Shown here in pieces: positions 22,964-50,230 of a DNA stretch of 64,000 bases. The notes below the pieces were generated by a model that was not told the DNA's origin, searched no databases, and saw only the letters and a list, made by a program, of their open reading frames with translations. Origin of the DNA: Anseongella ginsenosidimutans (GTDB lineage Bacteria > Bacteroidota > Bacteroidia > Sphingobacteriales > Sphingobacteriaceae); the NCBI RefSeq assembly GCF_008033235.1, contig NZ_CP042432.1, forward strand, positions 1,302,001 through 1,366,000. The letters are read 5' to 3'. Both the position numbers and the translations under genes were made by a program. The first letter of the stretch is position 1. The number at the start of each line of letters is the position of its first letter.

Positions 22964-25900
22964 ATGTACGAACATTCTATTAAACTGCTGCGTACTATGA
23001 AGTTGATTGCTGTTTTGCTGACAGTTTCGATTATGCAGGTCAGTGCCGGCGGCTTCGCGCAAAACCTTACCTTCAGCCAGGACGACGTAAGCATCAAACA
23101 GATTTTTAAGGAGATCAGGAAGCAAACGGGCTACGATGTCTTTTACCTGCCCCGGATGGTTGACGCCGGCAGGCGGCTGCAGGTGAATTTTGATAATGCT
23201 CCGCTGGAACAGGTTATGGAGCGATGCCTGGAGGGGTATCCGCTGACTTATGTCATTGACGACAAGACCATCGTGATAACAAGGAAGCTGTCCTTCCCCC
23301 GGCCTGAAGATTTCACTACCGCTGAAAAAGCCCAGCAGGCAGTCAGCGGGCAGGTCACCGATAGCATCGGAGCCCCCTTGCCGGGGGTGGCGGTGCAGGT
23401 AAAGGGTACCAGCACAGGCAGCATAACCGACGAGGAGGGCCGGTATGAATTGCCTGCACTGGAAGACGGCGCCGTACTGGTATTCAACCTGATGGGCTTC
23501 TTCAGCCAGGAGATTCCCGTGAATGGACGTGGGGTAATTGACCTGGTAATGAAGGTCGAAGAATCACAGCTTGAAGAAGTAGTGGTGGTTGGATACGGAA
23601 CGCAGAAAAGGACAAGCCTGACTAGTGCTGTCTCGGATATTAAGGGCGAAGAATTGACCAGGCGGCCGGTAGCAAATGCGCCGCAGGCCTTACAGGGGCT
23701 TGCCCCGGGAGTCACGGTCATGGACCGCGGCGGGGCGCCCGGCAAGTCAAACGCCACCATCCGCATACGAGGCATCACTACCCTGGGCGCTAATGACCCC
23801 CTGGTAGTCGTAGACGGGATAGAACAAAGCCTTCAGGATCTGAATCCCAACGACATTGCCTCCGTAACCGTGCTGAAGGACGCCGCTTCTACCGCGATTT
23901 ATGGTTCCAGAGCGGCGAACGGTGTGGTGCTGGTCACCACCAAACGCGCGGAAACCGGTACGCTTTCGGTGAATTATAATGGTTATTATGCCGTTCAGCA
24001 AAGCATTTACAATCCCGAACACATGGGACTGGAAGATTTTATGCGGCTTGAGAATACAGGCTTCGTGAATGCGGGTAAAGAACCCAAGTACACCGAAACA
24101 GAGATCCAGGAATGGGTGAACGCGACTGACCGCTATAAATACCCGTTGCCCAACGTTTGGTTTGACGTATTCCTTGATCCGGCTCCCCAGCAAAGCCATA
24201 CCTTGTCGCTATCTGGGGGAACCGAACAGATCAAGGCCCTGTTCTCTGTAAACTATTACAAACAGGATGGTATTATCCCTACATCAACAGGCGACAGGAA
24301 GGACGTCCGTCTAAACACGGATTTTAAGGTTTCCGACCGGATCAGTCTGTCCGGTGATTTTAACTACCGGGTAAAAGAATACGCTGCGCCTCTCCATGAG
24401 GACGCAGCGTTCAGGTATATGCTCAGCGGCTCCAATTTTGCAGTTCCCGTATATCCTGACGGGACCTATGGGCTGGGTTCGGAAAATTATAGCCCCCTGG
24501 TAACCGCTGTTATGGATGGTACATCCGATTTTGCCGATAACTACGCGTTCATTAACCTGAAGGGAAACATTGAGATCCTTAAGGGCCTCAGGTTTCAGAC
24601 ACAATATGCCGTCAAGTATGAACAATATTACCGTAAGGACTTCGCCAACGATTATGAAATACGGGACTATTATAACAAGGACAATATTCTGAAATCCGTT
24701 GGCCCCAATAGCCTTACGGAGATACGCAATAATAGCAAGGAGTATACCTTGAATAACCTGCTCGTGTACGATGCGAACTGGAGTGATCATGCCCTGAACG
24801 CGACGCTCGGCTATTCGCAAATCTCCCATGACGCATCGGAGCTGTCAGCTTCCAGGAACGATTTTTATAATAATGAGATTCAGGCCATCTCACAAGGCTC
24901 AGCCGACTCGCGGGACAATGACGGCCTGGATTTTGACTGGGGCCTGCGTTCTTATTTTGGCCGGGCAACCTATAACTACAGCGGGAAATATTTCCTGGAG
25001 GCCAGCGCCCGTTATGATGGCTCTTCGCGTTTTACCGGGGATAATAAATACAGCTTCTTTCCCTCTGTTTCAGGCGCATGGAGAATTTCCCGGGAGCCTT
25101 TCTGGGATGGAGCCCGGAGCGTGGTCAACGAGTTTAAGCTAAGGGGGTCCTGGGGGAAGACCGGCAACCAGGCGGTAGACCTGTACTCGTACTTTGAAAC
25201 CCTGGCTGCCCTGAATTATAATTTCGGCGGTAACGGCGTTCAGGGCATTATCCAGCAAGCGCTCGCCAACGAGGCCCTGACCTGGGAAACTACCGTTCAA
25301 ACCGATGTGGGTGTAGATCTTGAATTCCTGAACGGCAAATTCGGGCTAACATTTGACTATTATGTGAAGAATACCGAGGGAATCTTGCTCGACTTGCCCA
25401 TACCGTCAGTCATCGGCCTCACCGCACCTCCCCAAAATGCCGGCGTTGTTGAGAATAAAGGATGGGAAGTGTCTGTTACCCATCAAAACGACACGCATGA
25501 TTTTCGCTATGCGATCACGGCTAACGTATCGGACGTGCGTAACAAGATCGTAAGCCTTGCCGGTACAGGGCCGTATATCAGCGGCAGCCCCAATGAGATC
25601 CTGACCATCCGGAAAGAGGGCCTCCCGATAGACGCTTACATCGGTTATAAGACCCTTGGTTTTTTTCAATCTGAAGAAGACGTCGCAAACTATGCCCTGT
25701 TTGATCCCGCCACTTCGGTGGGCGATGTGAAATACGCTGATATCAACGAGGATGGCGCCATTAATTCGGAAGATTATGTCATGATAGGCTCCAGCATACC
25801 GCGCTATACATTCGGCCTGAATATGAATTTCGGCTATAAGAATTTCGATATGAATGTGTTTTTCCAGGGTGTGGGGAAGGTGAACGGACTGCCCTCAGGC

Positions 25901-26272
25901 GCATTCAGGGAGCAGGGGAACTGGGGCGGATTTGCGCTGGCCATCGGAAAGGATTACTGGACACCCGAGAACCGGGATGCGGAATTTCCGCGGCCCAAGG
26001 CACAAACTATCCATAATTCCCAAATGTCCGATTTTTGGATGATTGATGCGTCCTATGTAAAATTAAAGAACCTGCAGATCGGATACACCCTGCCCGCCAG
26101 CCTCACAGAGAAATTGACCATCCGGAAACTGAGGGTATATGTGAGCGGCTCTAACCTGTTCACTATTTCCGAGGCAACCAAATGGGGCCTTGATCCTGAA
26201 TTCCCCTCAGGCCGCCTTAATTACTACCCGCAGGTTTCATTGTACACCCTGGGACTGAATGTGACCTTTTAA
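22964..26272 (+). CDS. SusC/RagA TonB-dependent transporter with STN signalling domain
   Basis: 1102 residues. Signal peptide to about residue 33; STN domain at about 45-112 (VSIKQIFKEIRKQTGYDVFYLP), which signals to FecR; CarboxypepD_reg-like domain at about 126-205 (VSGQVTDSIGAPLPGVAVQVKG); EEVVVVGYGTQ box; plug (AIYGSRAANGVVLVTTKR); then a 22-strand barrel ending LGLNVTF. It forms the outer-membrane channel for a glycan, with the SusD at 26290 as lid. The STN domain fits its place behind a sigma/FecR pair. The frame is intact throughout. Confidence 0.95.
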   Translation: MYEHSIKLLRTMKLIAVLLTVSIMQVSAGGFAQNLTFSQDDVSIKQIFKEIRKQTGYDVFYLPRMVDAGRRLQVNFDNAPLEQVMERCLEGYPLTYVIDDKTIVITRKLSFPRPEDFTTAEKAQQAVSGQVTDSIGAPLPGVAVQVKGTSTGSITDEEGRYELPALEDGAVLVFNLMGFFSQEIPVNGRGVIDLVMKVEESQLEEVVVVGYGTQKRTSLTSAVSDIKGEELTRRPVANAPQALQGLAPGVTVMDRGGAPGKSNATIRIRGITTLGANDPLVVVDGIEQSLQDLNPNDIASVTVLKDAASTAIYGSRAANGVVLVTTKRAETGTLSVNYNGYYAVQQSIYNPEHMGLEDFMRLENTGFVNAGKEPKYTETEIQEWVNATDRYKYPLPNVWFDVFLDPAPQQSHTLSLSGGTEQIKALFSVNYYKQDGIIPTSTGDRKDVRLNTDFKVSDRISLSGDFNYRVKEYAAPLHEDAAFRYMLSGSNFAVPVYPDGTYGLGSENYSPLVTAVMDGTSDFADNYAFINLKGNIEILKGLRFQTQYAVKYEQYYRKDFANDYEIRDYYNKDNILKSVGPNSLTEIRNNSKEYTLNNLLVYDANWSDHALNATLGYSQISHDASELSASRNDFYNNEIQAISQGSADSRDNDGLDFDWGLRSYFGRATYNYSGKYFLEASARYDGSSRFTGDNKYSFFPSVSGAWRISREPFWDGARSVVNEFKLRGSWGKTGNQAVDLYSYFETLAALNYNFGGNGVQGIIQQALANEALTWETTVQTDVGVDLEFLNGKFGLTFDYYVKNTEGILLDLPIPSVIGLTAPPQNAGVVENKGWEVSVTHQNDTHDFRYAITANVSDVRNKIVSLAGTGPYISGSPNEILTIRKEGLPIDAYIGYKTLGFFQSEEDVANYALFDPATSVGDVKYADINEDGAINSEDYVMIGSSIPRYTFGLNMNFGYKNFDMNVFFQGVGKVNGLPSGAFREQGNWGGFALAIGKDYWTPENRDAEFPRPKAQTIHNSQMSDFWMIDASYVKLKNLQIGYTLPASLTEKLTIRKLRVYVSGSNLFTISEATKWGLDPEFPSGRLNYYPQVSLYTLGLNVTF

Positions 26273-26289
26273 AATTAACCGGAAAAATC

Positions 26290-27867
26290 ATGAAACGAAC
26301 TATATACAGATTTCTGGCCGGATGCTGCTTTGCGTTGCTTGCCGGCGGCTGCCAGAAAGACCTGCTCAAGACAATTCCCAACGACCGGATCACCTCTGAA
26401 ATATTCTGGACCGAGGAAAAGGATGCAGTCCTGGCGGTAAATGCGATTTATACGTACCTGGAAGGCGTCAGCATATTTTCCTACGATGCCCTGTCCGATA
26501 TCGCAAGGCCGAATCAAAACTTTATGCAGGAATCCTACATCGTAAAAGGAACGTATGATGCCCTCAATCCCTTTGTGGTAGAAAAGTGGGACAATGCTTA
26601 CAAAGGTATACGCGCCGTAAATTATTTCCTGGAGAACGTGGATAAGGTTCCGACGGACAACATGGACCTGATCACCCGGCTAAAGGGGGAAGCACGCTTC
26701 CTGCGGGCCTATTTTTACATCCAGCTGACCACCCTCTTTGGCGATGTGCCCTTGATTACGAAGTCATTATCCATCGAGGAAGGCAAAACGGTCCAGCGTA
26801 CCCCGGCGACCGAGGTGTATGATTTTATCGGGGAAGAGCTGACGGCTGCCGCCGCGGAGTTGCCGGTGGACGCCAGTGAGCCGGGCAGAATAACCAAAGG
26901 CGCTGCTCTTGCCTTTAAAGCGCGTCTGATGCTTCTTATCAAACGTTATGACGAGGCTGCCCAAGCCGCAGCCGAAGTGATGGCGCTGGATAAGTACGAA
27001 CTTTATCCCAGCTATGAGAACTTATTTTCCTATTCGGCCGAGAATAACAGCGAAGTTATCCTGGATAAACAATTTACAGAGAATATCTACGCAAACAACA
27101 GCTTTGCCTTGCTGGCCCCTTACTCACAGACAGCTTCGGGTAATATTGTTCCGGTTAAAAAGCTGGTGGATGCCTACCAGATGCAGAACGGGAAAGGCAT
27201 AGAAGAAGCCGGCAGCGGCTTTGATCCTCATGACCCCTATGCGAACAGGGATCCCCGCCTGCATTATTCCATCTTTGTGTTGGGAAGCCAGCTTCCTGAC
27301 GGAACAACCTATGACTCCCGGCCCGGTAGCGGCACTGCCGATGCCATCGGGTATAATCCCGGTTCCACCAAAACGGGTTTCAACGTAAAGAAGTATGTAA
27401 ATGCGCAAGACAGGAATGACAGGGACAATAGCGGGATCAATATCATTTTAATGCGCTACGCGGAAGTACTGTTAACGTATGCCGAAGCTAAAATCGAGCT
27501 AAACCAGGTTGATGCATCTGTTTTTGAGGCCATCAACGAGGTTCGTCAGCGCGCCGATGTGGGTATGCCGGCGATCACAGCGCCAAAATCGCAGGAAGAA
27601 ATGCGTAGTATTGTAAGGCGGGAACGTATGATAGAACTGGCCTTTGAAGGACAAAGATTCTTCGATATTCGCCGTTACGGCATCGCCGGGGAAGTAATGA
27701 ACGGGACGGCGTCCGGGATGACCTATACCAACAGCAGCGGTGACCTGGTTACCGTAACTGACAATTCTTTTATACGGTTTTTTGACCCGGACCGCGACGT
27801 GTTATGGCCGATACCGCAAAAGGAACTGGATCTGAACCCCGGGCTGACACCGAACCCAGGCTGGTGA
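26290..27867 (+). CDS. SusD/RagB-family glycan-binding lipoprotein
   Basis: 525 residues with a lipobox (FALLAGGC, Cys21). The SusD pattern is clear: DRITSEIFWTEEKDAVLAVNAIYTYL, KGEARFLRAYFYIQLTTLFGDVPL and the C-terminal RRERMIELAFEGQRFFDIRRYG. The last residues, LNPGLTPNPGW, match the usual ending. It forms the surface lid of the SusC encoded 17 bp upstream. The genes that follow (Gfo/Idh/MocA, DUF1080) suggest that the imported ligand is a glycoside handled by an oxidative route. Confidence 0.94.
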   Translation: MKRTIYRFLAGCCFALLAGGCQKDLLKTIPNDRITSEIFWTEEKDAVLAVNAIYTYLEGVSIFSYDALSDIARPNQNFMQESYIVKGTYDALNPFVVEKWDNAYKGIRAVNYFLENVDKVPTDNMDLITRLKGEARFLRAYFYIQLTTLFGDVPLITKSLSIEEGKTVQRTPATEVYDFIGEELTAAAAELPVDASEPGRITKGAALAFKARLMLLIKRYDEAAQAAAEVMALDKYELYPSYENLFSYSAENNSEVILDKQFTENIYANNSFALLAPYSQTASGNIVPVKKLVDAYQMQNGKGIEEAGSGFDPHDPYANRDPRLHYSIFVLGSQLPDGTTYDSRPGSGTADAIGYNPGSTKTGFNVKKYVNAQDRNDRDNSGINIILMRYAEVLLTYAEAKIELNQVDASVFEAINEVRQRADVGMPAITAPKSQEEMRSIVRRERMIELAFEGQRFFDIRRYGIAGEVMNGTASGMTYTNSSGDLVTVTDNSFIRFFDPDRDVLWPIPQKELDLNPGLTPNPGW

Positions 27868-27912
27868 ATTGCGGTTTAACTGATTATATTTACAGGTTTT
27901 AAATTAAATACT

Positions 27913-29235
27913 ATGGATACGAGAAAGAATAATGGATCACAGGATGCTAACGACATGGGCCGCCGGTCTTTTATAAAAGGTACCGGTGCGGCCATGATCG
28001 GCGGCGCGCTTGCGTATAACCTGGGTTTTCCCAATGAAGCGTTTGCCGCGAACAAAGGAACACTGAAAGTTGGATTGATCGGCTGCGGCGGCCGGGGCAC
28101 CGGCGCGACGATCCAGGCGCTGACCGCAGACCCGGATGTGGTATTGACCGCCATGGGCGATGTTTTTCCTGATCGTTTGGAAGAGGCCTATGCTGCCATT
28201 ACCAAAGTGAAACCGGATGAGGTGAAGGTTCCGCGCAGGCGCCAGTATATCGGCTTTGACGCTTACCAGAAGGTGATCGATTCAGGGGTTGACGTGGTGA
28301 TCCTGACTACGCCGCCCGCTTTCCGCCCCGGGCATCTGGAGGCGGCCATAGCAGCCGGGAAACATGTGTTCTGCGAAAAACCGGTAGCTGTTGATGCTCC
28401 GGGGGTCCGTAAGGTGCTGGCGGCGGCAAAGGAGGCGAAGGCGAAAAACCTGTCACTCATGTCAGGCTTTTGCTTCCGGCGCGATTATGCAAATATGGCT
28501 GCTTTCGGCAAAGTCCTCGATGGCGCTATCGGCGATGTGCGCACCGTAACCACTTTCCGCAACGGCGGGGAACTCTGGACCAAGCCAAGGCAGCCGGACT
28601 GGACGGATATGGTCTATAAAATGCGCAACTGGTATTATCATGACTGGCTTTCAGGCGATTTTATCGTGGAACAGGCGGTGCATAGTATCGATATGATGTC
28701 ATGGGCTATGGGTGACCGGCTTCCGGTACGGGCCACCGGAACAGGCGGGCGGCAGCGCCGGGTAGATGAAATATACGGCAATATTTACGACCATTTTGCG
28801 ATAGAATATGAATATGCCGACGGGGCAAAGGGAATCCATTTTTGCCGCCAGCAGGCCGGCACCACCGGCCGCAATACGGTAGAAGTTGCCGGCACGCTGG
28901 GAAATGCCAACTTCATGATCGGCCGCGAGCATGTAATTACCGGCAAGAACCCCTGGAAGTACGAAGGAGAAAACAATAATATGTTCCAGGCGGAACACGA
29001 TGAGCTTTTCGCTTCGATCCGCAGCGGCAAACCTGTGAACGACGGCGAATGGATGGCGAACAGCACGATGCTTGCCATCTTAGGAAAGATGGTCGGGTAC
29101 AGCGGCCAGTCCATCACGCTGGAAGAAGCCTTTAATTCGGAGCTAGCTATCGGCCCGAAACTGGAGGAGTATGATTGGGACCTCGTTTGGGAAACTCAGC
29201 CGGTTGCTGTGCCGGGCATTACAAAAGTACTTTAA
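27913..29235 (+). CDS. Tat-exported Gfo/Idh/MocA-family oxidoreductase
   Basis: 440 residues. A twin-arginine signal, RRSFIKGTGAAMIGG (from Arg17), directs export of the folded protein with its cofactor. The NAD(P)-binding motif GLIGCGGRGTG (54-64) and the CEKPVAVD motif with catalytic Lys identify the Gfo/Idh/MocA family, and HSIDMMSWAMGD lies in the C-terminal domain. Such enzymes oxidise a sugar hydroxyl, and several Bacteroidota members act at C3 of glycosides. It follows SusD by 45 bp and precedes the DUF1080 gene, so the three likely act on the same imported glycan. Confidence 0.92.
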   Translation: MDTRKNNGSQDANDMGRRSFIKGTGAAMIGGALAYNLGFPNEAFAANKGTLKVGLIGCGGRGTGATIQALTADPDVVLTAMGDVFPDRLEEAYAAITKVKPDEVKVPRRRQYIGFDAYQKVIDSGVDVVILTTPPAFRPGHLEAAIAAGKHVFCEKPVAVDAPGVRKVLAAAKEAKAKNLSLMSGFCFRRDYANMAAFGKVLDGAIGDVRTVTTFRNGGELWTKPRQPDWTDMVYKMRNWYYHDWLSGDFIVEQAVHSIDMMSWAMGDRLPVRATGTGGRQRRVDEIYGNIYDHFAIEYEYADGAKGIHFCRQQAGTTGRNTVEVAGTLGNANFMIGREHVITGKNPWKYEGENNNMFQAEHDELFASIRSGKPVNDGEWMANSTMLAILGKMVGYSGQSITLEEAFNSELAIGPKLEEYDWDLVWETQPVAVPGITKVL

Positions 29236-29276
29236 CTGTGTAAAAAGCACTTTAGAATTCAACAATTGTCGATCAA

Positions 29277-30029
29277 ATGCGAACAAGACTAGTAATATTT
29301 TTCCTTGCCGTCTTTGCTGCGGGGCCGCATGATTCGCTCTATGCCCAGTCAACGATTTCCTTTGGAACCGTAACGAAGCCGGACTGGGAACGGGCCGATC
29401 TGAAGGGGGAACCCGCATCCATCAAATGGATCAACGTCAACACCAACCCGGATACCTGGAAGCTGAAAAAGGATGTGCTGGTTTGTTCCGGAGAGCCCAT
29501 TGGCGTAATGCGGTCGGAAAAGCAGTACGAGAATTTCATACTTCATGTTGAATGGAGGCATATGGAAGCAGGCGGGAACTCCGGCATCTTTGTATGGAGC
29601 GACGCCCTGCCGGGCAAGGAAAACCGGCTCCCGGGCGGCGTTGAAGTGCAAATGCTGGAGCTGGACTGGGTAAACCAGCACAAACGCGACGGTGTTACGC
29701 CGCCCATCGCCTACGTTCATGGCGAACTTTTCGGCGTTGGCGGCGTCACTACAGTACCTGATAACCCCAGGGGAACCCGCAGCAAATCCGTTGAAAACCG
29801 GTGCAAGGGCAAGGGCGAATGGAACACCTACGACGTGGTTTGCGTGGACGGCGTGATCAAGCTATCCGTTAACGGCAAGTTCGTCAATGGCATCAGCCAG
29901 TCAACGATCAAGAAAGGCTATCTCTGCCTCGAGTCGGAAGGCGCTGAAATAGAGTTCCGCAACCTGAGATTGGTGGAACTGCCGCCGGGAGTAACGACAA
30001 CGGCCCAAACCGCTCCTTTGGCGCGGTAG
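29277..30029 (+). CDS. DUF1080 protein (3-keto-disaccharide hydrolase / 3-keto-glycoside lyase family)
   Basis: 250 residues with a signal peptide ([22 protein letters not shown]). The body is a concanavalin-like beta sandwich with the family's conserved patches: [37 protein letters not shown] and [12 protein letters not shown]1080 proteins have been linked to cleavage of 3-keto-glycosides, by hydrolysis or elimination, after oxidation by a partner dehydrogenase; the partner here would be the Gfo/Idh/MocA protein just upstream. It should act in the periplasm. The stop codon lies inside the first copy of a 30-bp repeat. Confidence 0.88.
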
Positions 30030-30099
30030 CTGCTGTACCGGCAGATGGACTACGTGAGCCAGCGCAAGCCCCAAACCGCTCCTGTAGCACGGTAGCTGC
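30004..30099. repeat. Pair of 30-bp direct repeats, 66 bp apart
   Basis: Copies at 30004-30033 and 30070-30099 share CCCAAACCGCTCCT, then a variable 7 bases, then CGGTAGCTGC; they differ at three positions. Each copy contains a small dyad (ACCG/CGGT). The first contains the DUF1080 stop codon (30027-30029) and the second is intergenic, which suggests a dispersed palindromic element of REP type. Confidence 0.6.
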
Positions 30100-30239
30100 C
30101 CGGCCGGCCGCATTATGCAGCGGGCATGCCTTGAGCGTCGGCCTGCCGCTCTGAAGGGAAAGGATTTTGCGACCGCAGCCAGTAGCTGCTTTTGCATATA
30201 GCTGTTTTGCATAAAAATTTAAAAAAAAGAAGATTAACG

Positions 30240-31238
30240 ATGAATATCCGAAAGTCAATTCCTGCTTTTATACTGACGATCTGTTTCCTGATTTTTTTCC
30301 AGCCCCCTGCGGCTTTTTCGCAGGCGGGTGAATTCGACCCTTATACCCAGGACCTGGCCAATGTTAAAACCGGGATTGACATGGTACCCATACAGGCAGG
30401 TGAGTTTACCATGGGCAGCCCGGCCGATGAACCCGGACGAAAACCAGATGAAGGCCCGGCGATCCAGGTGAAGCTGGACCCCTTCTGGATGTCGGCAAAA
30501 GAGATCCCATGGGACGTGTACGAACTCTTTATTTTCGAATCGGGCGATGTGACGAAACCTGTTGATGAAGCAGCCGGCGCTGACGCCGTTACCCGGCCGA
30601 CGCCTCCTTACCTGGACATGACCTTCGGTATGGGCAAAGAAGGCCATCCCGCGGTAGGCATGACGCAATACAACGCCATTCAGTTCTGTAAATGGCTTTA
30701 CACCCGCACCGGCGTATTTTACCGCCTTCCCACGGAAGCAGAATGGGAATATGCCTGCCGCGCAGGCTCAGCCAGCGCTTACTTTTTCGGCCAGGAGGCG
30801 TCCGCCCTTGACGAATACGCCTGGTATGCGGCTAATAGCAGCGGGGAAACCCATCCGGTTGGCAGCAAAAAGCCGAATCCCTGGGGGCTCTACGACATGT
30901 ACGGGAATGCCTCCGAATGGACAATTGACCAATACGTCCCCGACTTTTACAAGCAGGCCGGCAAGAAAACCGTCGAAAACCCGGTGGCCGAAGCTACCGA
31001 GCTGTACCCGCATTCCGTACGGGGCGGCTCCTTTGAGGATGAGGCGGCTGAACTTCGCTCCGCCAACCGGCAGAAATCCGACCCAAGCTGGAAGGCGATG
31101 GACCCTCAAACACCTAAAAGCAATTGGTGGTTTCCCTCCACTCCCTTTATCGGCGTCCGGATCGTCCGCCCGCTGAACCCTCCTTCCAAAGAGGAAATAG
31201 CCGCATATTATAATGTGGAACCGATCCCGGAGTATTAA
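30240..31238 (+). CDS. SUMF1/formylglycine-generating-enzyme-fold protein, probably not a true FGE
   Basis: 332 residues from the ATG at 30240; a TTG frame from 30192 is rejected. A signal peptide covers about residues 1-29. The SUMF1 fold is seen in [45 protein letters not shown] and [19 protein letters not shown]. The cysteines that true formylglycine-generating enzymes need near the C-terminus are absent: after RGGSF the expected Cys positions are E/A/S. A structural or binding role is more likely. No sulfatase gene is present. It closes the Gfo/Idh-DUF1080 operon. Confidence 0.85.
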
Positions 31239-31262: not shown

Positions 31263-33650
31263 TCACAATGATTTCACCGGGTTCATCAACGCCGCCTTTA
31301 CGGACTGGAAGCTTACGGTCAGGAGGGCGACCAGCACGGACAACAAACCGGCCAGGGCAAATATCCACCACTCGATAGCCACCCTGTAGGTGAAATTTTC
31401 CAGCCATTTGTTCATTGCATACCAGGCAATGGGCGTGGCAATGACAAAACCGAATACGACAAGTTTAAGGTAATCTTTACTCAGCAGGCGAATGATGCTG
31501 GATACGTTTGCGCCCAGCACTTTGCGGACGCCAATCTCTTTCATGCGCAGCTCGGAAGTATAGGCGGCAAGGCCGAACAAACCCAGGGAGGCGATCAGGA
31601 TAGCCAGCAAGGTAAAGAACCCGAACATTTCTCCGAGCCGGATATCCCTTTTATAGAGTTGGTCAAAGCTGTCGTCCAGGAACTGGTACTCAAAGGGGTA
31701 ATGCGTGAACTGCCGGACTTTTTGCTCAAACAACTCAACGGTCCCGGGAAGGTTTTGTGCGCTTACGCGGGCGGAGATATATCCGGCGGGCTCCCTGTCA
31801 AGGGTGAGTACGAGCGGATCGATCGCACGGTGGATAGAGTTGTAGTGAAAGTCGCTGACGACACCTAGGACGGTCCTTCGTCCGCGGCCGTCCGAGTAAC
31901 CGAATTCCTTGCCCACCGCCTCTTCGGGTGTCCAGCCGAGCGCCTTCGCCGTGGTTTCATTGATCAAAGCGACCGGAGCGCCCAGGGTATCTGTGCCGAA
32001 CCTGCGTGAGAAGCCCCGTCCGGCGATGACACTGATCCCGTAAATATCAAGGAAGTCATAGTCAATACTAGTGGTACGGGTTGAAAGAAGCTTCCCGTTA
32101 CTGCCTTCGTAGTCGAACATATTTTGAGTGGTCAGCACACTGGTGGGCAGGTTCTTCGAATAGGCGATGGTAATAATGCGGGAATCCTGCAGCAATTCTT
32201 CCCGGATAGACGCATAGTGCCGGCTGAGGCCCGGATCCCTGACTTCTACCGTAAGGACATGTTCCCGGTTATAGCCCAGGTCCCGGTTTTGTACAAGCTG
32301 CATTTGCCGGTATATAACGAGGCTGCCTACTACAAGTGCAATGGAAACAGCATATTGTCCTACGATCAGCACAGGCTGCAGCCTGAAACCGGCTTTACGC
32401 CGTCCCTGCTTTCCCGCCAGTGCCTGGATAGGCCGGAGCGAGGTCAGCAGGAACGCGGGGTAGCTTCCGGAAAGCAGGCCCACCAACAGCGTAAGCGTCA
32501 GCATTCCCGGAAGGAGCAGGGGGTTGTCAAGATAGTCCATCCGGAGCGGACGCTCCACCAAATGGCTGAAAAACGGCAGCAGAAGATGCGCTAACACGAG
32601 GGCGAGTACCAACGCCAGGAAGGTCATCATCACCGACTCTCCGATAAACTGGGCCATGAGCTGCCCCTGCCGCGCTCCCGCGACTTTGCGCATACCTACT
32701 TCCTGTGCCCTCCGGATGGAGCGCGCTACGGCCAGGTTGGTATAATTGATACAGGCCAGCAGCAGGATGGCGAAACCAATAGCCAGGAAAAGATATACGT
32801 ATTGCTGGTTCCCGCTCTTCTCGAACGGAAAGGTGAGGATGTTCCGCGAAGGAAGGTGAATGTCATTCAATGATTGTAAAAAAAATGTCATCCGGTCTTC
32901 CGGCCGCCGGTCGGCCAGGTTCTTTTCGATATAGGCGTACATCTTTCCCTCCAGCTGCCCGGTGGTTGCACCACCGGCCAATTCTACGTAGGTGTACCAT
33001 CCGTTATTGTTCCAGGGCTCCCGGCTCACACATTCCCGGTAGTTCTGATTAGACGCGGCAGGCAGGACATAACTAAATGTCAGGTGGGAGGTTTCGGGCA
33101 CATCGGCCATTATTCCCGTCACAATATGCGGATGCTGATCCTGGTAGATCAATGTCCGGCCCATGGGGTCTTCTTCACCAAAGATCTTCCGGGCAAGGCT
33201 TTCGGTGAGTACAATGCTGTTAGGGCTTGCCAGCGAGGTTTCCGGATTCCCCTGCACAAGGGGAAAAGTAAAAATGTCCAGGAAAGCTGTGTCAGCTAAT
33301 ATCCCTTGTTCCTCGTAATACTGGTCACCCAGGCTCAGCAGGGGGTTGAAGGTTTCCGCGACCGTCGTAGCGGCCGTAACTTCAGGAAATTCCTGCGTCA
33401 GCGTGCCCGCCATAGCCGGTGAAGTGACTGCCCAGTACTCCGCCGCACCTGAAGTGGGCCGCTGCTGCGCCACCCGGAATATACGCTCTCCTTTTTCATG
33501 AAAACGGTCATATGAAAACTCGTGCTGCACAAAGAGCAGGATCAATATACAGCAAGCCAGGCCCGCGGCCAGCCCGAAGATATTAATGAACGAATATCCC
33601 GGATTCCTCCAAAGGTTTCTCCCGGTAATTTTCAGATAGTTTCTAAACAT
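31263..33650 (-). CDS. FtsX/MacB-type ABC transporter permease
   Basis: 795 residues. Architecture: TM helix (about 21-41), a periplasmic MacB-type core domain, an FtsX block of three helices (about 285-400), a further TM near 425, a second periplasmic domain, and a C-terminal FtsX block (about 675-780) ending SFQSVKAALMNPVKSL. This duplicated eight-TM form is expanded in Bacteroidota and is thought to use a separately encoded ATPase. It does not transport in the classical sense but may drive periplasmic or efflux work. It is paralogous to 40161-42554 and preceded by a sigma-54 promoter. Confidence 0.9.
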   Translation of the reverse strand: MFRNYLKITGRNLWRNPGYSFINIFGLAAGLACCILILLFVQHEFSYDRFHEKGERIFRVAQQRPTSGAAEYWAVTSPAMAGTLTQEFPEVTAATTVAETFNPLLSLGDQYYEEQGILADTAFLDIFTFPLVQGNPETSLASPNSIVLTESLARKIFGEEDPMGRTLIYQDQHPHIVTGIMADVPETSHLTFSYVLPAASNQNYRECVSREPWNNNGWYTYVELAGGATTGQLEGKMYAYIEKNLADRRPEDRMTFFLQSLNDIHLPSRNILTFPFEKSGNQQYVYLFLAIGFAILLLACINYTNLAVARSIRRAQEVGMRKVAGARQGQLMAQFIGESVMMTFLALVLALVLAHLLLPFFSHLVERPLRMDYLDNPLLLPGMLTLTLLVGLLSGSYPAFLLTSLRPIQALAGKQGRRKAGFRLQPVLIVGQYAVSIALVVGSLVIYRQMQLVQNRDLGYNREHVLTVEVRDPGLSRHYASIREELLQDSRIITIAYSKNLPTSVLTTQNMFDYEGSNGKLLSTRTTSIDYDFLDIYGISVIAGRGFSRRFGTDTLGAPVALINETTAKALGWTPEEAVGKEFGYSDGRGRRTVLGVVSDFHYNSIHRAIDPLVLTLDREPAGYISARVSAQNLPGTVELFEQKVRQFTHYPFEYQFLDDSFDQLYKRDIRLGEMFGFFTLLAILIASLGLFGLAAYTSELRMKEIGVRKVLGANVSSIIRLLSKDYLKLVVFGFVIATPIAWYAMNKWLENFTYRVAIEWWIFALAGLLSVLVALLTVSFQSVKAALMNPVKSL

Positions 33651-33684: not shown

Positions 33685-33700
33685 TGCAAGAAAGCTGCCA
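33685..33700 (-). promoter_or_regulatory. Sigma-54 (-24/-12) promoter of the permease at 31263
   Basis: On the minus strand the sequence reads TGGCAGCTTTCTTGCA, with GG at -24 and GC at -12 in the exact spacing of the RpoN consensus (TGGCAnnnnnnTTGCA). The predicted start is near 33675, about 25 nt before the ATG at 33650. The same element stands upstream of the paralogous permease at 42633-42648. Confidence 0.75.
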
Positions 33701-33750
33701 CACCGGTAAACAATGTTTTTGAGGAATCTGGGCGTTTTCTTACTGGGAAT

Positions 33751-33788
33751 TGTCCGATTACGGACATTGGTGCGTTCATATATGGACA
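33751..33788 (-). promoter_or_regulatory. Paired enhancer-type dyads upstream of the sigma-54 promoter
   Basis: TGTCCG-ATTA-CGGACA (33751-33766) is a perfect 6-bp dyad starting 51 bp upstream of the -24 element. A degenerate copy, CGTTCA-TATA-TGGACA, starts exactly 22 bp further (33773-33788). Two sites two helical turns apart is the usual layout for an NtrC-type activator. Confidence 0.65.
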
Positions 33789-33892: not shown

Positions 33893-35317
33893 ATGAGCAT
33901 GGAAGCTATTATTGGCCGGAAGGAAGAAGTTACGGAGATGCAATCTCTCATATCGTCCTCGCAACCAGAATTTTTGGCTGTATATGGAAGAAGGCGTGTT
34001 GGTAAGACCTATCTTATCAGGAATACATACCGGGAACGTATTGTTTTTCAAATGACCGGCTTTGCAGATGCCAGTACAGCCGAACAACTTAGCAACTATT
34101 GGAGTGCGCTCAAGTCTGTTTACTCAGATATGGTATATGACGCCCCTCCAAAAGATTGGATGCAGGCTTTTGAATGGTTAAGGGAATATCTGGAAAGCAT
34201 TGATGACGGGAAAAAAGTCATATTCTTTGACGAGCTTCCCTGGATCGATACGTTTCGATCTAAGTTCATCCAGGCTTTAGGTCATTTTTGGAATGCATGG
34301 GCATCGGATAGAAGCGATATAATTCTCGTAGTTTGCGGGTCTGCGGCCTCCTGGATGATCAATAAGCTAATCAACGACCCGGGCGGCCTTCATAACCGGG
34401 TGACCAAGCGCATCCGGTTAGACCCCTTTACGCTTCAGGAAACAGAGGCATTCCTGCACCATAAGCACATTAAGTATGACCGGTACCAAACCATCCAATT
34501 GTATATGAGTTTGGGCGGTATCCCTTATTACCTCAATGAACTAAAACCGGGCCGCAGCGTTTTTCAGGAGATTGACCGACTGTGTTTTTCGCCGAAGGGC
34601 AGCTTAGCGGGCGAATATCACAATCTGTATCGTTCTTTATTCCGGCATGCCGACAACCATATTGCTATTGTGGAAGCGCTGGCAAAGAAAAGCAAAGGAT
34701 TGACGCGTGATGAACTTATCAAACAAAGTGGTCTTAGCAACGGAGGCTACATCACCAAGGTTATTGCCGAGCTGGAAGAAAGCGGATTTATCACCATTGT
34801 GTATCCCTTTGGAAAGCGAATCAAAAATGCGCTTTACCGGTTAACTGACCAATTTACACTCTTTTATCTCAAATTTATGCAAGACAGGAAGGCAAAAGGA
34901 GAAGGCGCCTGGCTTAGTCGCATAGACAGCCCATCCTGGCGGGCATGGAGCGGTTATGCATTTGAAAACGTCTGCTTCCGGCACATCCATCACCTGAAAA
35001 AGGCCCTTGGTATCAGCGGAGTATATACGGAAATTTCTTCCTGGCAAAGCCGGGATCAGGGCGCGCAAATTGACCTGCTGATTGATCGGCGCGACCATGT
35101 GATCTCCGTATGCGAAATCAAGTTCTCCAAAGACCCCTATATAATCACCAAAAGCTACAGGGCAGAACTTGAAAAGAAACTGTCTGTATTCCGAATGGAA
35201 ACCGGCACCGCAAAAACGGTATTCCTTACGTTTGTTACAACCATGGGACTGGTGCCAAATCAGCACTCCTTAGGATTGGTGCAGAATGTAGTTACGCTGG
35301 ATGCATTGTTTGAGTAG
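33893..35317 (+). CDS. AAA ATPase with C-terminal DUF234/PD-(D/E)XK-like domain
   Basis: 474 residues. Walker A GRRRVGKT is at 32-39 and Walker B VIFFDELPW at 109-117 (Asp113, Glu114); a winged-helix segment follows at about 255-320. The C-terminal domain has Asp394 in AQIDLLIDRR and Glu408-x-Lys410 in VCEIKFS, the D-(x)n-ExK pattern of PD-(D/E)XK nucleases. This is the archaeal-type ATPase/DUF234 family, widespread, mobile and poorly understood. It has no operon partner and carries unusual repeated dyads at its promoter. Cytoplasmic. Confidence 0.85.
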   Translation: MSMEAIIGRKEEVTEMQSLISSSQPEFLAVYGRRRVGKTYLIRNTYRERIVFQMTGFADASTAEQLSNYWSALKSVYSDMVYDAPPKDWMQAFEWLREYLESIDDGKKVIFFDELPWIDTFRSKFIQALGHFWNAWASDRSDIILVVCGSAASWMINKLINDPGGLHNRVTKRIRLDPFTLQETEAFLHHKHIKYDRYQTIQLYMSLGGIPYYLNELKPGRSVFQEIDRLCFSPKGSLAGEYHNLYRSLFRHADNHIAIVEALAKKSKGLTRDELIKQSGLSNGGYITKVIAELEESGFITIVYPFGKRIKNALYRLTDQFTLFYLKFMQDRKAKGEGAWLSRIDSPSWRAWSGYAFENVCFRHIHHLKKALGISGVYTEISSWQSRDQGAQIDLLIDRRDHVISVCEIKFSKDPYIITKSYRAELEKKLSVFRMETGTAKTVFLTFVTTMGLVPNQHSLGLVQNVVTLDALFE

Positions 35318-40160: not shown

Positions 40161-42554
40161 TTATTCCGATCGCAGCGACTTTACCGGGTTCATCAGCGCG
40201 GCTTTCACTGATTGAAAGCTGACGGTCAGTAAGGCGATCAACAGCGCCAGCAAGCCCGCCAGGCCAAAGATCCACCAGGCCAGGTCTATCCGGTAGGCAA
40301 AATTCTGGAGCCAGCGACTGACCGCATAATGGCTTAAAGGAATGGCCAGCACGAAAGCCAAAGCTACCAGCTTCAAAAAGTCGCGGGACAGTAGTAAAAC
40401 TATATCGGGTACGGCCGCCCCCATTACCTTCCTAATGCCTACTTCTTTAGTACGGCGTTGTATCGACTGCATGGCCAGGCCGAATAAGCCCATACAGGAA
40501 ATAAAGATCGACAAGATGGCGCCGGCGGTGATCATTTGCTTCCATTTCGCTTCGCTTGCGTAACCCGCCTGGTTAATGTCATGCATATAAGCGTAAGAGA
40601 AAGGACGAAAGGGCATCACCTTTTCATAGGCTTCCCGTATGGCCTTCAGGGCTTGGGTGGCCTTACCCGGCCTTAGCTTTACCCAAAGGTCCCCTGAGCC
40701 GTGTTTCAAAAGGAGCGGCCCTATTTTTTCTTTCAGAGAGGTAAAATGGTAGTCTTTCACCATACCTATCACGGTCAGCTGCTCATCGCCGTAATTGATC
40801 ACCTGCCCGATGGGATCCTTTCCGGAGGCAGGGGCCCAACCGGCTTCTTTCGCAAAGGTTTCGTTGATAATCACCGAATGCGCAGCGTCGGCGGGAAAAT
40901 CCGGTGAAAAATTCCGGCCCTGAAGTATGGGAATCTGTAAGGCGGGGAGAAACTGTTCATCTATCCAACTGAGGGCAAAATAAATTTCCTTTTCCTGGTT
41001 GTTCACCTTAGCCATCGTATAGCTTTGTCCGCCGAAATCTTTGGTAGCGGTTAGTGTAATGGAAGATTCGCCGGCCAGTTCGTTTTTCAGCGTACTGATA
41101 GCGGCATCGTGCCGCCCTCTCCCCAGATGTACGATGACCAGATCTTCATCGTTGTATCCGAGGTCTTTGTGCATCAGGTAGCTGAACTGGGAATAGATAC
41201 CGGTGGTGGCTATCATCAGAAACGTGGCCAGTGTGAACTGCAGGATCACCAGCCCCCTGGCCAAATAGTTTCTGCCGGTGCGGTGGTGGCGATTATAGAG
41301 GGTCTGCACAGGTTTATATCCCGAAAGAACCAGCGCCGGGTAGAGGCCGGAAGCCAGCCCCGTGGTCAGGAAAAGCGCCAGGTAAATGGTTATCAGCTTA
41401 ATATCCAACAAGTAAGAAAAGCTCAGACGTTTGTTTGATAACTCATTAAAGAATGGAAGCGCCAGCTGTGCGATCGCGATGGCAGCAGCAAAAGCCAGCA
41501 GGCAAAGAATGAATGATTCGCCCAGAAACTGGCCCGCAAGTTGCCCCCTTTGCCCGCCAATGACTTTCCGGATGCCTATTTCTTTGCCTCTTTTCAGCGA
41601 ATGGGCAATGGTAAGGTTCACAAAGTTGATGCAGGCAATGACCAGGATAAATAATGCAATGCCCGAGAGAATGTAGGAGTATAGTGGATTACTTCCTGCG
41701 GTCAGCCCGTTTCTGAGATCCCCGTATCCAGTATCCAGGTGAATCTGCGGGAAGGGCTGCAAGCCGAAGCGAACCCTGTCTTTGTAATCAAGTTTCTCCT
41801 TCATTTCCTGCAATTCTCCTCCGGCCTTGCTAAGGAAAACCTGGTTCAGCTTGGGCGCCACTGTTTTATCATCCGACCCGGGGCGCAATACAAGGAATGT
41901 ATTGATATAGAACCCTACCCAGGCATTATCGGGGTAGCGGGACCGGAGAAATTCGAAAGGGATCAGTATATCGAACTGAAGCGATGAGTTCTGCGGCGGA
42001 TTTTTGGCTACCGCCGTAACCTGAAAGGGTTGAAACTTTTCGTCCACCCGCAATTCCAGCGTTCTGCCAAGTACGTTCGTCGTGCCGAAGTATTTTTCCG
42101 CAGCAGCTTCCGACAATACCATTGACTGCAACCCGGACAAGGCCGTCGCGGCATCTCCGGAGATAAGCGGAAAGGAGAACACGGAGAAAAAGTTTTCATC
42201 CGCAGACAAAATCTCTTCCTCAAAAGTTTCAGCGCCCCGGCGAAGGATATACGACCCGGTTTCCATGCGCACAAAGGCTTCCACTTCGGGAATTTCCGCG
42301 GCAAAAGACGGTCCGACGATCTGGTTAGTGCTTCCAAGCTTGTTCACGCCGTCTTTACCACTTATCGTGGCCGTCACCCGGAAGATCTGATCTTTTTTTT
42401 CATGGAAGCGATCAAAGCTCACTTCATCTTTGGTATACAGCACAATAAGCATGCAGCAGGCCAACCCCATGCTGAGTCCGGCCACATTAATAGCCGAATA
42501 CACCTTATTGCGGGCAAGCGCCCTGAAAGCGGTCCGAAAATAGTTTCTGAGCAT
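40161..42554 (-). CDS. FtsX/MacB-type ABC transporter permease
   Basis: 797 residues, with the same eight-TM duplicated layout as 31263-33650: first TM at about 21-41 (KVYSAINVAGLSMGLACCMLIV), MacB core domain, FtsX block at about 285-400 with GKEIGIRKVIGGQRGQLAGQF, and a C-terminal FtsX block ending TVSFQSVKAALMNPVKSL. The first and last 30 residues are nearly shared with the paralogue, the periplasmic parts less so. The upstream region carries a sigma-54 promoter and paired dyads arranged as in the paralogue, so both should answer to one activator. No ATPase gene is adjacent. Confidence 0.9.
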   Translation of the reverse strand: MLRNYFRTAFRALARNKVYSAINVAGLSMGLACCMLIVLYTKDEVSFDRFHEKKDQIFRVTATISGKDGVNKLGSTNQIVGPSFAAEIPEVEAFVRMETGSYILRRGAETFEEEILSADENFFSVFSFPLISGDAATALSGLQSMVLSEAAAEKYFGTTNVLGRTLELRVDEKFQPFQVTAVAKNPPQNSSLQFDILIPFEFLRSRYPDNAWVGFYINTFLVLRPGSDDKTVAPKLNQVFLSKAGGELQEMKEKLDYKDRVRFGLQPFPQIHLDTGYGDLRNGLTAGSNPLYSYILSGIALFILVIACINFVNLTIAHSLKRGKEIGIRKVIGGQRGQLAGQFLGESFILCLLAFAAAIAIAQLALPFFNELSNKRLSFSYLLDIKLITIYLALFLTTGLASGLYPALVLSGYKPVQTLYNRHHRTGRNYLARGLVILQFTLATFLMIATTGIYSQFSYLMHKDLGYNDEDLVIVHLGRGRHDAAISTLKNELAGESSITLTATKDFGGQSYTMAKVNNQEKEIYFALSWIDEQFLPALQIPILQGRNFSPDFPADAAHSVIINETFAKEAGWAPASGKDPIGQVINYGDEQLTVIGMVKDYHFTSLKEKIGPLLLKHGSGDLWVKLRPGKATQALKAIREAYEKVMPFRPFSYAYMHDINQAGYASEAKWKQMITAGAILSIFISCMGLFGLAMQSIQRRTKEVGIRKVMGAAVPDIVLLLSRDFLKLVALAFVLAIPLSHYAVSRWLQNFAYRIDLAWWIFGLAGLLALLIALLTVSFQSVKAALMNPVKSLRSE

Positions 42555-42632: not shown

Positions 42633-42648
42633 TGCAAGAAGGCTGCCA
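42633..42648 (-). promoter_or_regulatory. Sigma-54 (-24/-12) promoter of the permease at 40161
   Basis: On the minus strand the sequence reads TGGCAGCCTTCTTGCA, with GG and GC in RpoN spacing. It differs by one base from the element at 33685-33700. The predicted start near 42623 leaves a leader of about 70 nt. Confidence 0.75.
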
Positions 42649-42699
42649 CACCGCTGATCTTTCCCTGCGGGCAATTTATCCACTTTTGAAAAAACTTCC

Positions 42700-42737
42700 T
42701 GTCCGTTTGCGAACACGCCTATGTCCGGATACGGACA
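42700..42737 (-). promoter_or_regulatory. Paired enhancer-type dyads, second permease
   Basis: TGTCCG-TTTG-CGAACA (42700-42715, one mismatch) and TGTCCG-GATA-CGGACA (42722-42737, perfect), 22 bp apart. The nearer one begins 52 bp upstream of the -24 element. The rest of the 327-bp gap (42555-42881) shows no gene. Confidence 0.65.
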
Positions 42738-44778: not shown

Positions 44779-46728
44779 TCAATACCCGGGATTCTGGTAA
44801 GCGGCTTTTTCTGCTTCGGTCATCTCTAAGCCATCAAGCTGTCCCTGGGGAATGGGGCGCAGGTAATGATACGGTTGAATATTGCGTGTGATCGTCTCCG
44901 GCGTATGGTCTCCATAATTGCTTCCTCCTATTTCATAGGCAGATGCGAGATCGGCCCATTTTTGCGTACGTATCAAATCGTACCAGCGATAACCTTCTCC
45001 GTAGTATTCACGCGAACGTTCGGCCAGGATATAGTCAATGTCAATCACGGCTGGTGTAGCGGCGATCATTTCGGCACTATGATCTTCCAATTTGGCGGCA
45101 TTCCCGTTATTATCCCAGCGCCATTTGCCTGCGCGTGAACGAATGACGTTGATCAATTCTGCGGCGCTTTTACCGGCCTGCACCGCCGCGCCTTTTACCG
45201 CCGCTTCGGCAGCAATAAAATAGAGTTCCGAAAACTTGGCAATGTTGAAAGGGCGGGTGCTGCCGGCATTGGGCTGCCCCAGTCCGCCGCCGTTGTCCGT
45301 ACGGTAAACGCCAAGCTTCCAAAGCCCTGGATACACGATCCTGCTGATGCCGCGCGGAGATACTACGAAATCGGATCTTCCGGGTAATACGCCGGCGCCG
45401 ATATTGCTTTTGTAGGTCGAATTTGAATAATCTATTGACCCGGCCGGTTCTTCGTCAAGAAAAGTTAATATAGGTTCACCCGGATAGACTTTCATATTGT
45501 TTGCGTTGTACACGAATGCTTCGCCAGCGCCTCCTTTAGGCCAGTTTCCGCGATAAACGGTTGTAAATGTGCCGTCATAGCGGGAATCATTGGTTTTATC
45601 GGCGAAGGTGTTTTCAATTACACCGATCGTGGGGGCCATACGTGTCCAGGGACGCCCCAGGTCCTGTGATGCTTCACGCTGAACGGAATTTATCACCGTA
45701 TTCCAGGCCGGATCAACAGCGCTTGTGATGTTTGTATAGTTCCAGGTCATCATCCAAACGGCAAAATTATCAGGGGCGCCGCCGCTGCCGTAGGTAAGGC
45801 TGCCTCCGTTATAAAACTCGCTGGTCTCGGTGTGGTCGGCATATAACAGTATTTCATTATTCCGGTCGTTTTGGGCCAGGTTAACGTCATAATAGGTTTC
45901 CTGCAGGCCGAACGGACCCGGGTTATCAATCGCCTCTGCTGCTATATCGTATGCTTGCTGAAAATACCAATGGGCGTCATGCCCGTCGGGGTCGGTACGC
46001 GGCGTTTCCGGGTAGGTAGGAATGTTATTGGGGTTTTCCAGCCACCAGGCATACGTGAGGTACGCTTTTGCCAGGTAGAGGCGGGCTGCTGTTTTGGTGA
46101 CTCCGCCTGTTACACGGCCGGTTTCAGGCAGGTCATTTACCGCTGTGAGCAAATCCGGGAATACGGCCTTTGTGTAAACCTCGGGTACTGTATTTCGCAC
46201 GGAGGTCCTTACAGGATTTGTATTGAATTTCAGTTCTCCCGAACCTAAGTCCAGGGGCACGCCGCCAAAGGTTTGTACAAGTAAAAAGTAGTCGAATGCG
46301 CGAAAGAACCTGGCTTCGGCAATCAAAGCGTCGGATATTGTGCCTATTTCAGCCGCATTTTCGATAATACCGCTCGCGGTGTTAATATTGGAGAACGCGG
46401 TTCCCCATAGTACATCGGCACGGCTGCTGGTAGAAGTAATATCTCCCTGGCCGCTAATGTCCATTACCTTGAAATTCTGGTCGGCGCTTTGGGCGTAAGT
46501 GGCTTCATCGGTGCCGGTAAGGCAAGTGTTATAGTAATAGGCCTGGCCGTAAATATACCGCAGGTGGGCGTACAGGGAGGTGATTCCTCCGTTAATACCC
46601 TTTTCGGTCTTGAAAAAGCCGGGTTCATAGATACTGCGAGGCTCTTCTTCCAGGATATCATTGCAGCCCACCAGAAACAAGGTCATTGCAATTGTTGCCA
46701 GGAACGTAGTTATATAGGTCCGTTTCAT
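44779..46728 (-). CDS. SusD/RagB-family glycan-binding lipoprotein
   Basis: 649 residues, long for the family. Lipobox TLFLVGC; the N-terminal motif RSIYEPGFFKTEKGINGGITSLYAHLRYIYG is typical of SusD. FFRAFDYFLLVQTFGGVPLDLG and the C-terminal EYYGEGYRWYDLIRTQKWADL follow. Extra length lies in the middle (about 300-450), possibly glycan-contacting loops. It is encoded 10 bp after its SusC, behind ECF sigma, FecR and a GH10 xylanase, so the ligand is probably xylan-derived. Transcription runs into the stem-loop at 44737-44761. Confidence 0.93.
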   Translation of the reverse strand: MKRTYITTFLATIAMTLFLVGCNDILEEEPRSIYEPGFFKTEKGINGGITSLYAHLRYIYGQAYYYNTCLTGTDEATYAQSADQNFKVMDISGQGDITSTSSRADVLWGTAFSNINTASGIIENAAEIGTISDALIAEARFFRAFDYFLLVQTFGGVPLDLGSGELKFNTNPVRTSVRNTVPEVYTKAVFPDLLTAVNDLPETGRVTGGVTKTAARLYLAKAYLTYAWWLENPNNIPTYPETPRTDPDGHDAHWYFQQAYDIAAEAIDNPGPFGLQETYYDVNLAQNDRNNEILLYADHTETSEFYNGGSLTYGSGGAPDNFAVWMMTWNYTNITSAVDPAWNTVINSVQREASQDLGRPWTRMAPTIGVIENTFADKTNDSRYDGTFTTVYRGNWPKGGAGEAFVYNANNMKVYPGEPILTFLDEEPAGSIDYSNSTYKSNIGAGVLPGRSDFVVSPRGISRIVYPGLWKLGVYRTDNGGGLGQPNAGSTRPFNIAKFSELYFIAAEAAVKGAAVQAGKSAAELINVIRSRAGKWRWDNNGNAAKLEDHSAEMIAATPAVIDIDYILAERSREYYGEGYRWYDLIRTQKWADLASAYEIGGSNYGDHTPETITRNIQPYHYLRPIPQGQLDGLEMTEAEKAAYQNPGY

Positions 46729-46738
46729 TTTGGTTATT

Positions 46739-50122: not shown

Positions 50123-50175
50123 AAATTACATCAGTTTTGTTGGTTAGAGTAAACAATTACTTTACGGAACCTTAT

Positions 50176-50214
50176 CGTATTGCGCTCCGCCCTGCCCGGC
50201 GGGGACGCAATACG
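50176..50214 (-). promoter_or_regulatory. Long stem-loop between fecR and susC
   Basis: CGTATTGCG (50176-50184) pairs perfectly with CGCAATACG (50206-50214); inside it CCGCC pairs with GGCGG. No T-tract follows on the minus strand. It lies in the 108-bp fecR-susC spacer, the same place as the hairpin at 22875-22899 in the other ECF locus. Confidence 0.6.
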
Positions 50215-50230
50215 TTTATCATCCGGCACA

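Follow-up and report, generated by a model that had tools for sequence, protein, structure and literature searches.

A candidate sigma-54 regulon of scattered duplicated permeases and two ATPase operons in Anseongella ginsenosidimutans

Results

Duplicated permease genes preceded by paired dyads and a -24/-12 element

The window, by which we mean the whole 64,000-nucleotide stretch of the Anseongella ginsenosidimutans genome under analysis (genome positions 1302001-1366000), carries two minus-strand genes for duplicated MacB_PCD/FtsX permeases, each with a match to the -24/-12 promoter of sigma-54 and two palindromic dyads upstream (Table 1). A preliminary description had reported, for the first permease, an RpoN -24/-12 match with exact spacing, a perfect dyad 51 bp further up, and a degenerate copy 22 bp beyond that. 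The letters and coordinates of the promoter are correct, the degenerate copy is present, and the product is indeed of the FtsX/MacB type, with MacB_PCD and FtsX domains in duplicate; the perfect dyad also exists at its place, but the gap counts 50 intervening bases. The second copy of the arrangement (42633-42737), the activator itself, and the lack of an ATPase gene near the permeases are absent from that description.

The window contains two mismatch-free copies of TGGCA-N6-TTGCA, in which ten bases separate GG from GC; they are found at 33685 and 42633 on the minus strand, each upstream of a permease. The exact TGTCCG-N4-CGGACA dyad likewise has two copies (33751 and 42722). The distal dyad of the first permease, with mismatches at four of 12 positions, is the weakest of our matrix training set, yet its position is typical, as a distal dyad 87-89 bp ahead of the promoter start is what the other promoters show. 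We built a dyad-dyad-promoter matrix from nine promoters outside the window, leaving out both window sites, and these two came up as its top-scoring window positions (66.6 bits at 42633, 63.5 bits at 33685); on 40 random first-order Markov windows the maximum was 14.4 bits. Window positions ranked lower (33.5 bits or less) come from the palindromic dyads of the two sites, read in overlapping registers.

As to the surroundings, the gene at 33893-35317 (plus strand) encodes an archaeal-type ATPase (ATPase_2/DUF234); it is divergent from the first permease and starts 105 bp past the distal dyad of that permease. SusC/SusD-type loci lie on both sides of the permeases (22964-31238 and 44779-51385), one with genes for a 3-keto-disaccharide hydrolase, a GFO/IDH/MocA protein, and an FGE-sulfatase-like protein, the other with a FecR gene.

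Table 1. Positions of the permeases, putative promoters, and dyads discussed in the text
Feature	Position	Strand	Evidence or context
Putative sigma-54 -24/-12 promoter of permease 1, TGGCAGCTTTCTTGCA	window 33685..33700	-	exact TGGCA-N6-TTGCA; held-out matrix 63.5 bits
Proximal dyad of permease 1 (putative activator site), perfect TGTCCG-N4-CGGACA	window 33751..33766	-	pattern match
Distal dyad of permease 1 (putative activator site), TGTCCATATATGAACG, degenerate, 22 bp from proximal	window 33773..33788	-	4/12 mismatches
Second putative sigma-54 promoter, TGGCAGCCTTCTTGCA	window 42633..42648	-	exact pattern; held-out matrix 66.6 bits
Proximal dyad of second promoter, one mismatch	window 42700..42715	-	pattern/matrix
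Distal dyad of second promoter, perfect	window 42722..42737	-	pattern/matrix
Duplicated MacB_PCD/FtsX permease 1, 795 aa	window 31263..33650	-	domain search; no ATPase gene nearby; NCBIfam ADOP 295.7 bits vs cut-off 622.3
Duplicated MacB_PCD/FtsX permease 2, 797 aa	window 40161..42554	-	domain search
Activator/HlyD dyad pair	genome ~2415977/2415978		between candidate activator gene (minus) and divergent HlyD-type adaptor + ATPase, 2415994-2418109 (plus)
Dyad pair upstream of second motor operon (ATPase, TolC-type channel, HlyD)	genome ~2440373/2440374
13 permease-type promoters	genome 1252998, 1335685, 1344633, 1418576, 2140644, 2173698, 2420060, 2648296, 2655838, 2700540, 2930918, 3690239, 3977902		-24/-12 element with permease or remnant downstream

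The arrangement recurs throughout the genome

In the genome searched (4,322,684 bases), the exact dyad has eight matches versus none for a backwards control, and the exact -24/-12 pattern has 15 versus five, a mild enrichment. Little can be concluded from the promoter word on its own, whereas dyad, dyad, and promoter in their fixed combination are decisive. Four of the 15 exact promoter matches are of the dyad class (1335685, 1344633, 2420060, 2930918). The other 11 were set aside as unrelated or chance matches, with no dyad above 10.7 bits within ~1.5 kb, and the one-mismatch matches at 846697, 1966553, and 3882801 also come without dyads. A dyad-pair pattern of fixed spacing matched at two places only, because the actual spacing varies, and we replaced it with a profile, R1. 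Scanned across the genome, the combined pattern recurs upstream of permease genes and not at random, and rpoN itself is present (PF04552 match at 3773440-3773916, E 2.1e-55), two points on which the preliminary description had made its reading depend.

The 378,429 bases fetched from this genome contain 16 places with paired dyads, counting the overlapping pairs at 3690135/3690152 once. The two dyads lie 19-23 bp apart, a spacing that would place them on the same helix face. Eleven places precede duplicated MacB/FtsX permease genes and two precede permease remnants; the remaining three are the gap between the gene for an NtrC-type response regulator, the candidate activator, and a divergent HlyD-ATPase operon, an ATPase-TolC-HlyD operon, and a gene of unknown function. 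A genome-wide search with R1, in which 150 of 1057 first-look candidates were scored, recovered the same 16 places (with E 2.2e-8 for the activator/HlyD region at ~2415977 and 1.0e-5 for the second ATPase operon at ~2440373) plus a weak match at 2365859 (E 0.02).

The layout of the permease-type promoters varies little. In the 11 matrix training rows the distal dyad lies at -87 to -89 and the proximal one at -66 to -70, and at 2140644 the dyads lie at -86 and -65. Two promoters had no part in training the matrix: 2648296, with 59.6 bits, and 2140644, with 26.3 bits, the next-best non-site reaching 21.5. The low score at 2140644 reflects a spacing below the range permitted by the matrix; R1, whose construction did not include this site, gives it 44.3 bits (E 7.2e-11). 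TGGC and TTG are invariant in 12 aligned promoters of this genome, four of which have T in place of the -12 C, and the R1 alignment extends to position 106 or 107 at all 13 promoters (12 of them R1 training rows). Behind the promoters at 2420060 and 3977902, just the final 20-70 residues of a permease survive. These C-terminal remnants lie at L052:12061-12168 and L063:4903-5169, and a further permease remnant at L063:1804-2019.

One might suppose that the dyads serve an ordinary repressor or activator acting alongside the main sigma factor and that the -24/-12 resemblance is a coincidence. Taken singly, the promoter word is common by chance, as the control count indicates, and the pair near 4096049 (R1 match at 4096018; locus L056:6050-6085), in which one dyad is perfect and the other near-perfect, has no -24/-12 element recognizable by eye on either strand, its downstream product being without a Pfam family. 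We nevertheless consider this very improbable, given the near-constant distance between promoter and dyads at the 13 promoters with their invariant TGGC and TTG, a distance also kept in the ortholog loci described below, and given that the adjoining regulator is of the sigma-54 class.

Association with duplicated permeases that lack a neighboring ATPase gene

The genome has 12 duplicated permeases, with the promoter directly upstream of 11; the twelfth (1413656-1416064) follows another one on the same strand, 48 bp behind it. The gene at 1252998 is split over two reading frames. All 11 promoter-proximal genes have the dyad-dyad-promoter arrangement, versus none of the six short single MacB permeases, around which no matrix position exceeds 21.5 bits. 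Among MacB_PCD genes, the arrangement is thus restricted to the duplicated class.

The permeases are paralogs with promoters directly upstream, and their upstream regions might simply be stretches copied in recent gene duplications, free of regulatory constraint. However, the permeases share only ~25%-40% identity in the pairs compared, little conservation is seen in the spacer that separates the dyads from the promoter whereas both of these are conserved, and the identical layout stands before non-permease operons and in other genera; we regard the probability of mere copying as negligible.

Of 29 ATPase matches (E up to 1e-10), none comes closer than ~36 kb to the 12 duplicated permeases, while an ATPase match lies within a few kilobases of two short ones (2586023 and 3108491). 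Because there is no other ATPase gene near them, the duplicated permeases probably draw on the two ATPases that appear to be co-regulated with them.

These two ATPases belong to operons that we call motor operons. In the gap between the activator gene and the HlyD-type adaptor gene, TGGCACGGCGATTGGC departs from the -24/-12 consensus by two mismatches and lies 89 bp from the distal dyad; the true start of the adaptor is probably ~170 bp inside the listed frame, past the promoter. The second motor operon has the -24/-12-like TGGCCGCAATATTGCG, likewise 89 bp from the distal dyad. A tblastn search of both motor loci detected no intact permease: one (L116) gave no match and the other (L052) a remnant only.

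A response regulator beside the paired dyads

According to the preliminary description, the activator gene lies outside the window and the regulon is governed from elsewhere. Both statements agree with the genome: none of 12 PF00158 matches, of which those at 561650, 616887, 1242343, and 2414901 are strong, falls between 1302001 and 1366000, and members of the set are spread over the genome. Only one of the four strong sigma-54 activators has an adjoining dyad pair in the fetched DNA. Encoded at 2414499-2415848 on the minus strand, it is a response regulator with receiver, Sigma54_activat (AAA), and Fis domains, and a histidine kinase gene adjoins it. This response regulator is likely to be the activator of the regulon.

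We collected its ortholog loci as the best 80 of 506 confirmed relatives, from Chitinophaga, Dyadobacter, Runella, Larkinella, Pedobacter, and others; these loci are not independent, many coming from one genus, Dyadobacter. A divergent HlyD gene is found in 70, a divergent ATPase gene in 71, and a permease match in 69. Within 450 bp upstream of the activator, 64 of the 80 have a dyad pair with a spacing of 20-22 bp (one second pair at 24), versus none in 20 rounds of shuffled upstream stretches; Chitinophaga pinensis (L122) and Dyadobacter fermentans (L134) are among the 64. A more stringent scan along the full length of the loci yielded 67 pairs, distributed over 63 of them, versus none after shuffling. 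The dyads are conserved beside the activator orthologs. Searched in the direction of HlyD, 46 of the 64 loci have their best -24/-12 match at a distance of 100-101 bp from the distal dyad and another 16, one helical turn closer, at 90-92 bp; the match falls elsewhere in the remaining two (L155 and L176). Where a divergent HlyD gene is present (70 loci), the gap contains an R1 match (E up to 1) in 69, and the remaining locus (L136) has it before a more distant HlyD gene; of the 10 loci without a divergent HlyD gene, some of them short contigs, one has a match. The conserved dyads thus go with the divergent exporter operon, not just with the activator gene. Five further R1 matches were found in these loci, four of them shortly upstream of an additional permease; the fifth (L167) is more than 400 bp away from any family member.

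The predicted sigma-54 contact loop of the candidate activator reads GAFTDA, not GAFTGA, and AFTDA was seen in 77 of 78 loop motif matches across the 80 ortholog loci. The accessible text of one source reports that single changes in GAFTGA usually reduce activity or eliminate it, most of all when F or T is altered (PMC3162934), and that of another calls the motif invariant (PMC12316311). F and T are preserved in GAFTDA, which perhaps reflects a lineage-specific contact with sigma-54.

It could also be that the regulon is real while another activator, for example that at 1242343 or that at 616887, binds the dyads, or that several share them. Three other strong Sigma54_activat genes exist, of which 616887 has the GAFTGA loop and 1242343 GSFTGA, and 1242343 lies ~10 kb from the permease at 1253086. 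Yet in the 378,429 fetched bases none of the three adjoins a dyad pair, the nearest being 9.6 kb from 1242343 and a permease site, whereas the dyads are conserved beside the response regulator at 2414499; we judge a different or shared activator unlikely, even considering the two genomes, described next, that have sites but no ortholog of it.

Occurrence in the family

We sampled 61 genomes of the family, this one included, from a larger group, defining an activator ortholog by E 1e-100 or better. R1 matches were found in 19 and an ortholog in 32 (both in 17, sites only in two, activator only in 15, neither in 27). R1 matches thus occur in 17 of 32 genomes with the ortholog versus two of 29 without (Fisher 8e-5, on genomes that are related), the 15 ortholog-bearing genomes without a match being so under the strict filter applied above 40 genomes. 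The two genomes with sites only are G015 (20 R1 matches) and G044 (four). A loose search of these two and of the same-genus genome G007 returned no ortholog, just weaker relatives (best E 4.9e-81 to 2.8e-85). In G015 and G044 the activator may have been lost in a draft assembly, or another activator may serve or have taken over. G007, a draft of 92% completeness, also has no R1 match.

A further 28 loci were fetched around R1 matches in the family. The match lies beside the N-terminal part of a permease in 18, in an activator/HlyD gap in five (two of these being one place read on both strands), and before an ATPase in two; in the other three (L204, L213, L224) no permease, adaptor, ATPase, or activator adjoins it. 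The candidate activator of A. ginsenosidimutans is up to 69% identical to orthologs from Chitinophaga and at most 52% to those in the sampled genomes of its own family. It is possible that the activator locus was acquired by horizontal transfer, G007 having none.

Discussion

NtrC-type activators bind as dimers to two sites, assemble into an ATPase ring on phosphorylation, and act on the sigma-54 polymerase. The reading that we favor, with a probability of about 0.85, is that both window sites belong to a single sigma-54 regulon driven by the response regulator at 2414499-2415848, together with scattered permeases and two motor operons. The regulator would be phosphorylated, probably by the adjoining histidine kinase. 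Its dimers would bind the two TGTCCG-N4-CGGACA dyads ~21 bp (two helical turns) apart, on one face of the DNA, and on phosphorylation form an ATPase ring, which would open an RNA polymerase-sigma-54 complex poised at TGGCAG-N2-TTCTTGCA, ~67 bp downstream of the start of the proximal dyad. Activated together would be its own divergent HlyD-ATPase operon, the second ATPase-TolC-HlyD operon, and the 12 duplicated permeases, two of them in the window; the scattered exporter genes probably switch on together. Counting against this reading are G015 and G044, with sites but no ortholog, the 15 ortholog-bearing genomes lacking an R1 match, the GAFTDA loop, the T at -12 in four of 12 promoters, and the tie of the conserved dyads to the exporter operon. 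The checkable parts of the preliminary reading agree with the genome, and that reading is supported.

Going further, with the odds somewhat against us, one may picture a modular exporter, in which one sensor kinase and activator control two motor/adaptor operons without an intact permease, and a dozen permeases, themselves without a nearby motor gene, are switched on with them and act as interchangeable heads for the same motors. If so, a shared promoter and not an operon would unite the machine, and a new substrate could be gained by placing one more permease under a copy of that promoter.

The permeases described here presumably fall into COG0577. A survey reports that sigma-54 promoters are enriched before COG0577 permeases in Bacteroidia, which it calls the first evidence of the link (PMC12316311); its accessible text gives no enhancer motif, activator, or regulon membership, and the main text contains none of the terms "palindrom," "UAS," and "upstream activating." In their accessible text, one article argues that sigma-54 governs the bacterial exterior (PMC3162934) and another describes the sigma-54 regulon of Flavobacterium psychrophilum, with the word "permease" absent (PMC9723704). 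Our literature search, with most subscription journals outside its scope, returned no account of the dyad motif, the activator, or the regulon. Hence the general link between sigma-54 and COG0577 is already published, while the dyad, activator, and regulon appear to be new and, judged from genome comparisons, well supported, with an unusual split between motor and permease genes.

Duplicated orphan permeases are present in dozens of copies in some Bacteroidota and are without a known role; two Dyadobacter genomes have 28 and 33 genes annotated as such, no regulation being given in the accessible text (PMC11573002). Linking a full permease set to a single activator, a DNA motif, and two ATPase operons that lack a permease would provide it with a testable switch and candidate partners, and the motif can be used to look for that set in related genomes.

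Several known systems share parts of this organization. With ADOP (TIGR03434), the permeases have in common a length of ~800 aa, two MacB_PCD-FtsX halves, the lack of a nearby ATPase gene, and many copies per genome; three of the 12 were tested and stay under the cut-off of 622.3 (295.7, 272.4, and 294.4 bits), so that they resemble ADOP without being assigned to it. As in the NtrC, ZraR, AtoC, and GlrR regulons, a receiver-AAA-Fis activator is encoded beside a kinase gene, and paired palindromes lie upstream of a -24/-12 element. Among 25 of 74 NCBIfam rows listed, however, the candidate activator reaches no cut-off, the best being PEP_resp_reg (383.5 of 502.6), and for AtoC it scores 365.1 against a cut-off of 714. 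The dyad, TGTC-N8-GACA, also differs from GlrR sites, which are TGTC-N10-GACA. Finally, an ATPase, a periplasmic adaptor, and a MacB-type permease also make up MacAB-TolC and DarBCD. The adaptor and ATPase match DarC and DarD best, although below the curated cut-offs (216.5 of 450 and 269.9 of 375), and the HlyD-type adaptor passes the broad RND_mfp cut-off (130.1 versus 94.9). Unlike in those systems, the permease genes here stand apart from the genes for ATPase and adaptor.
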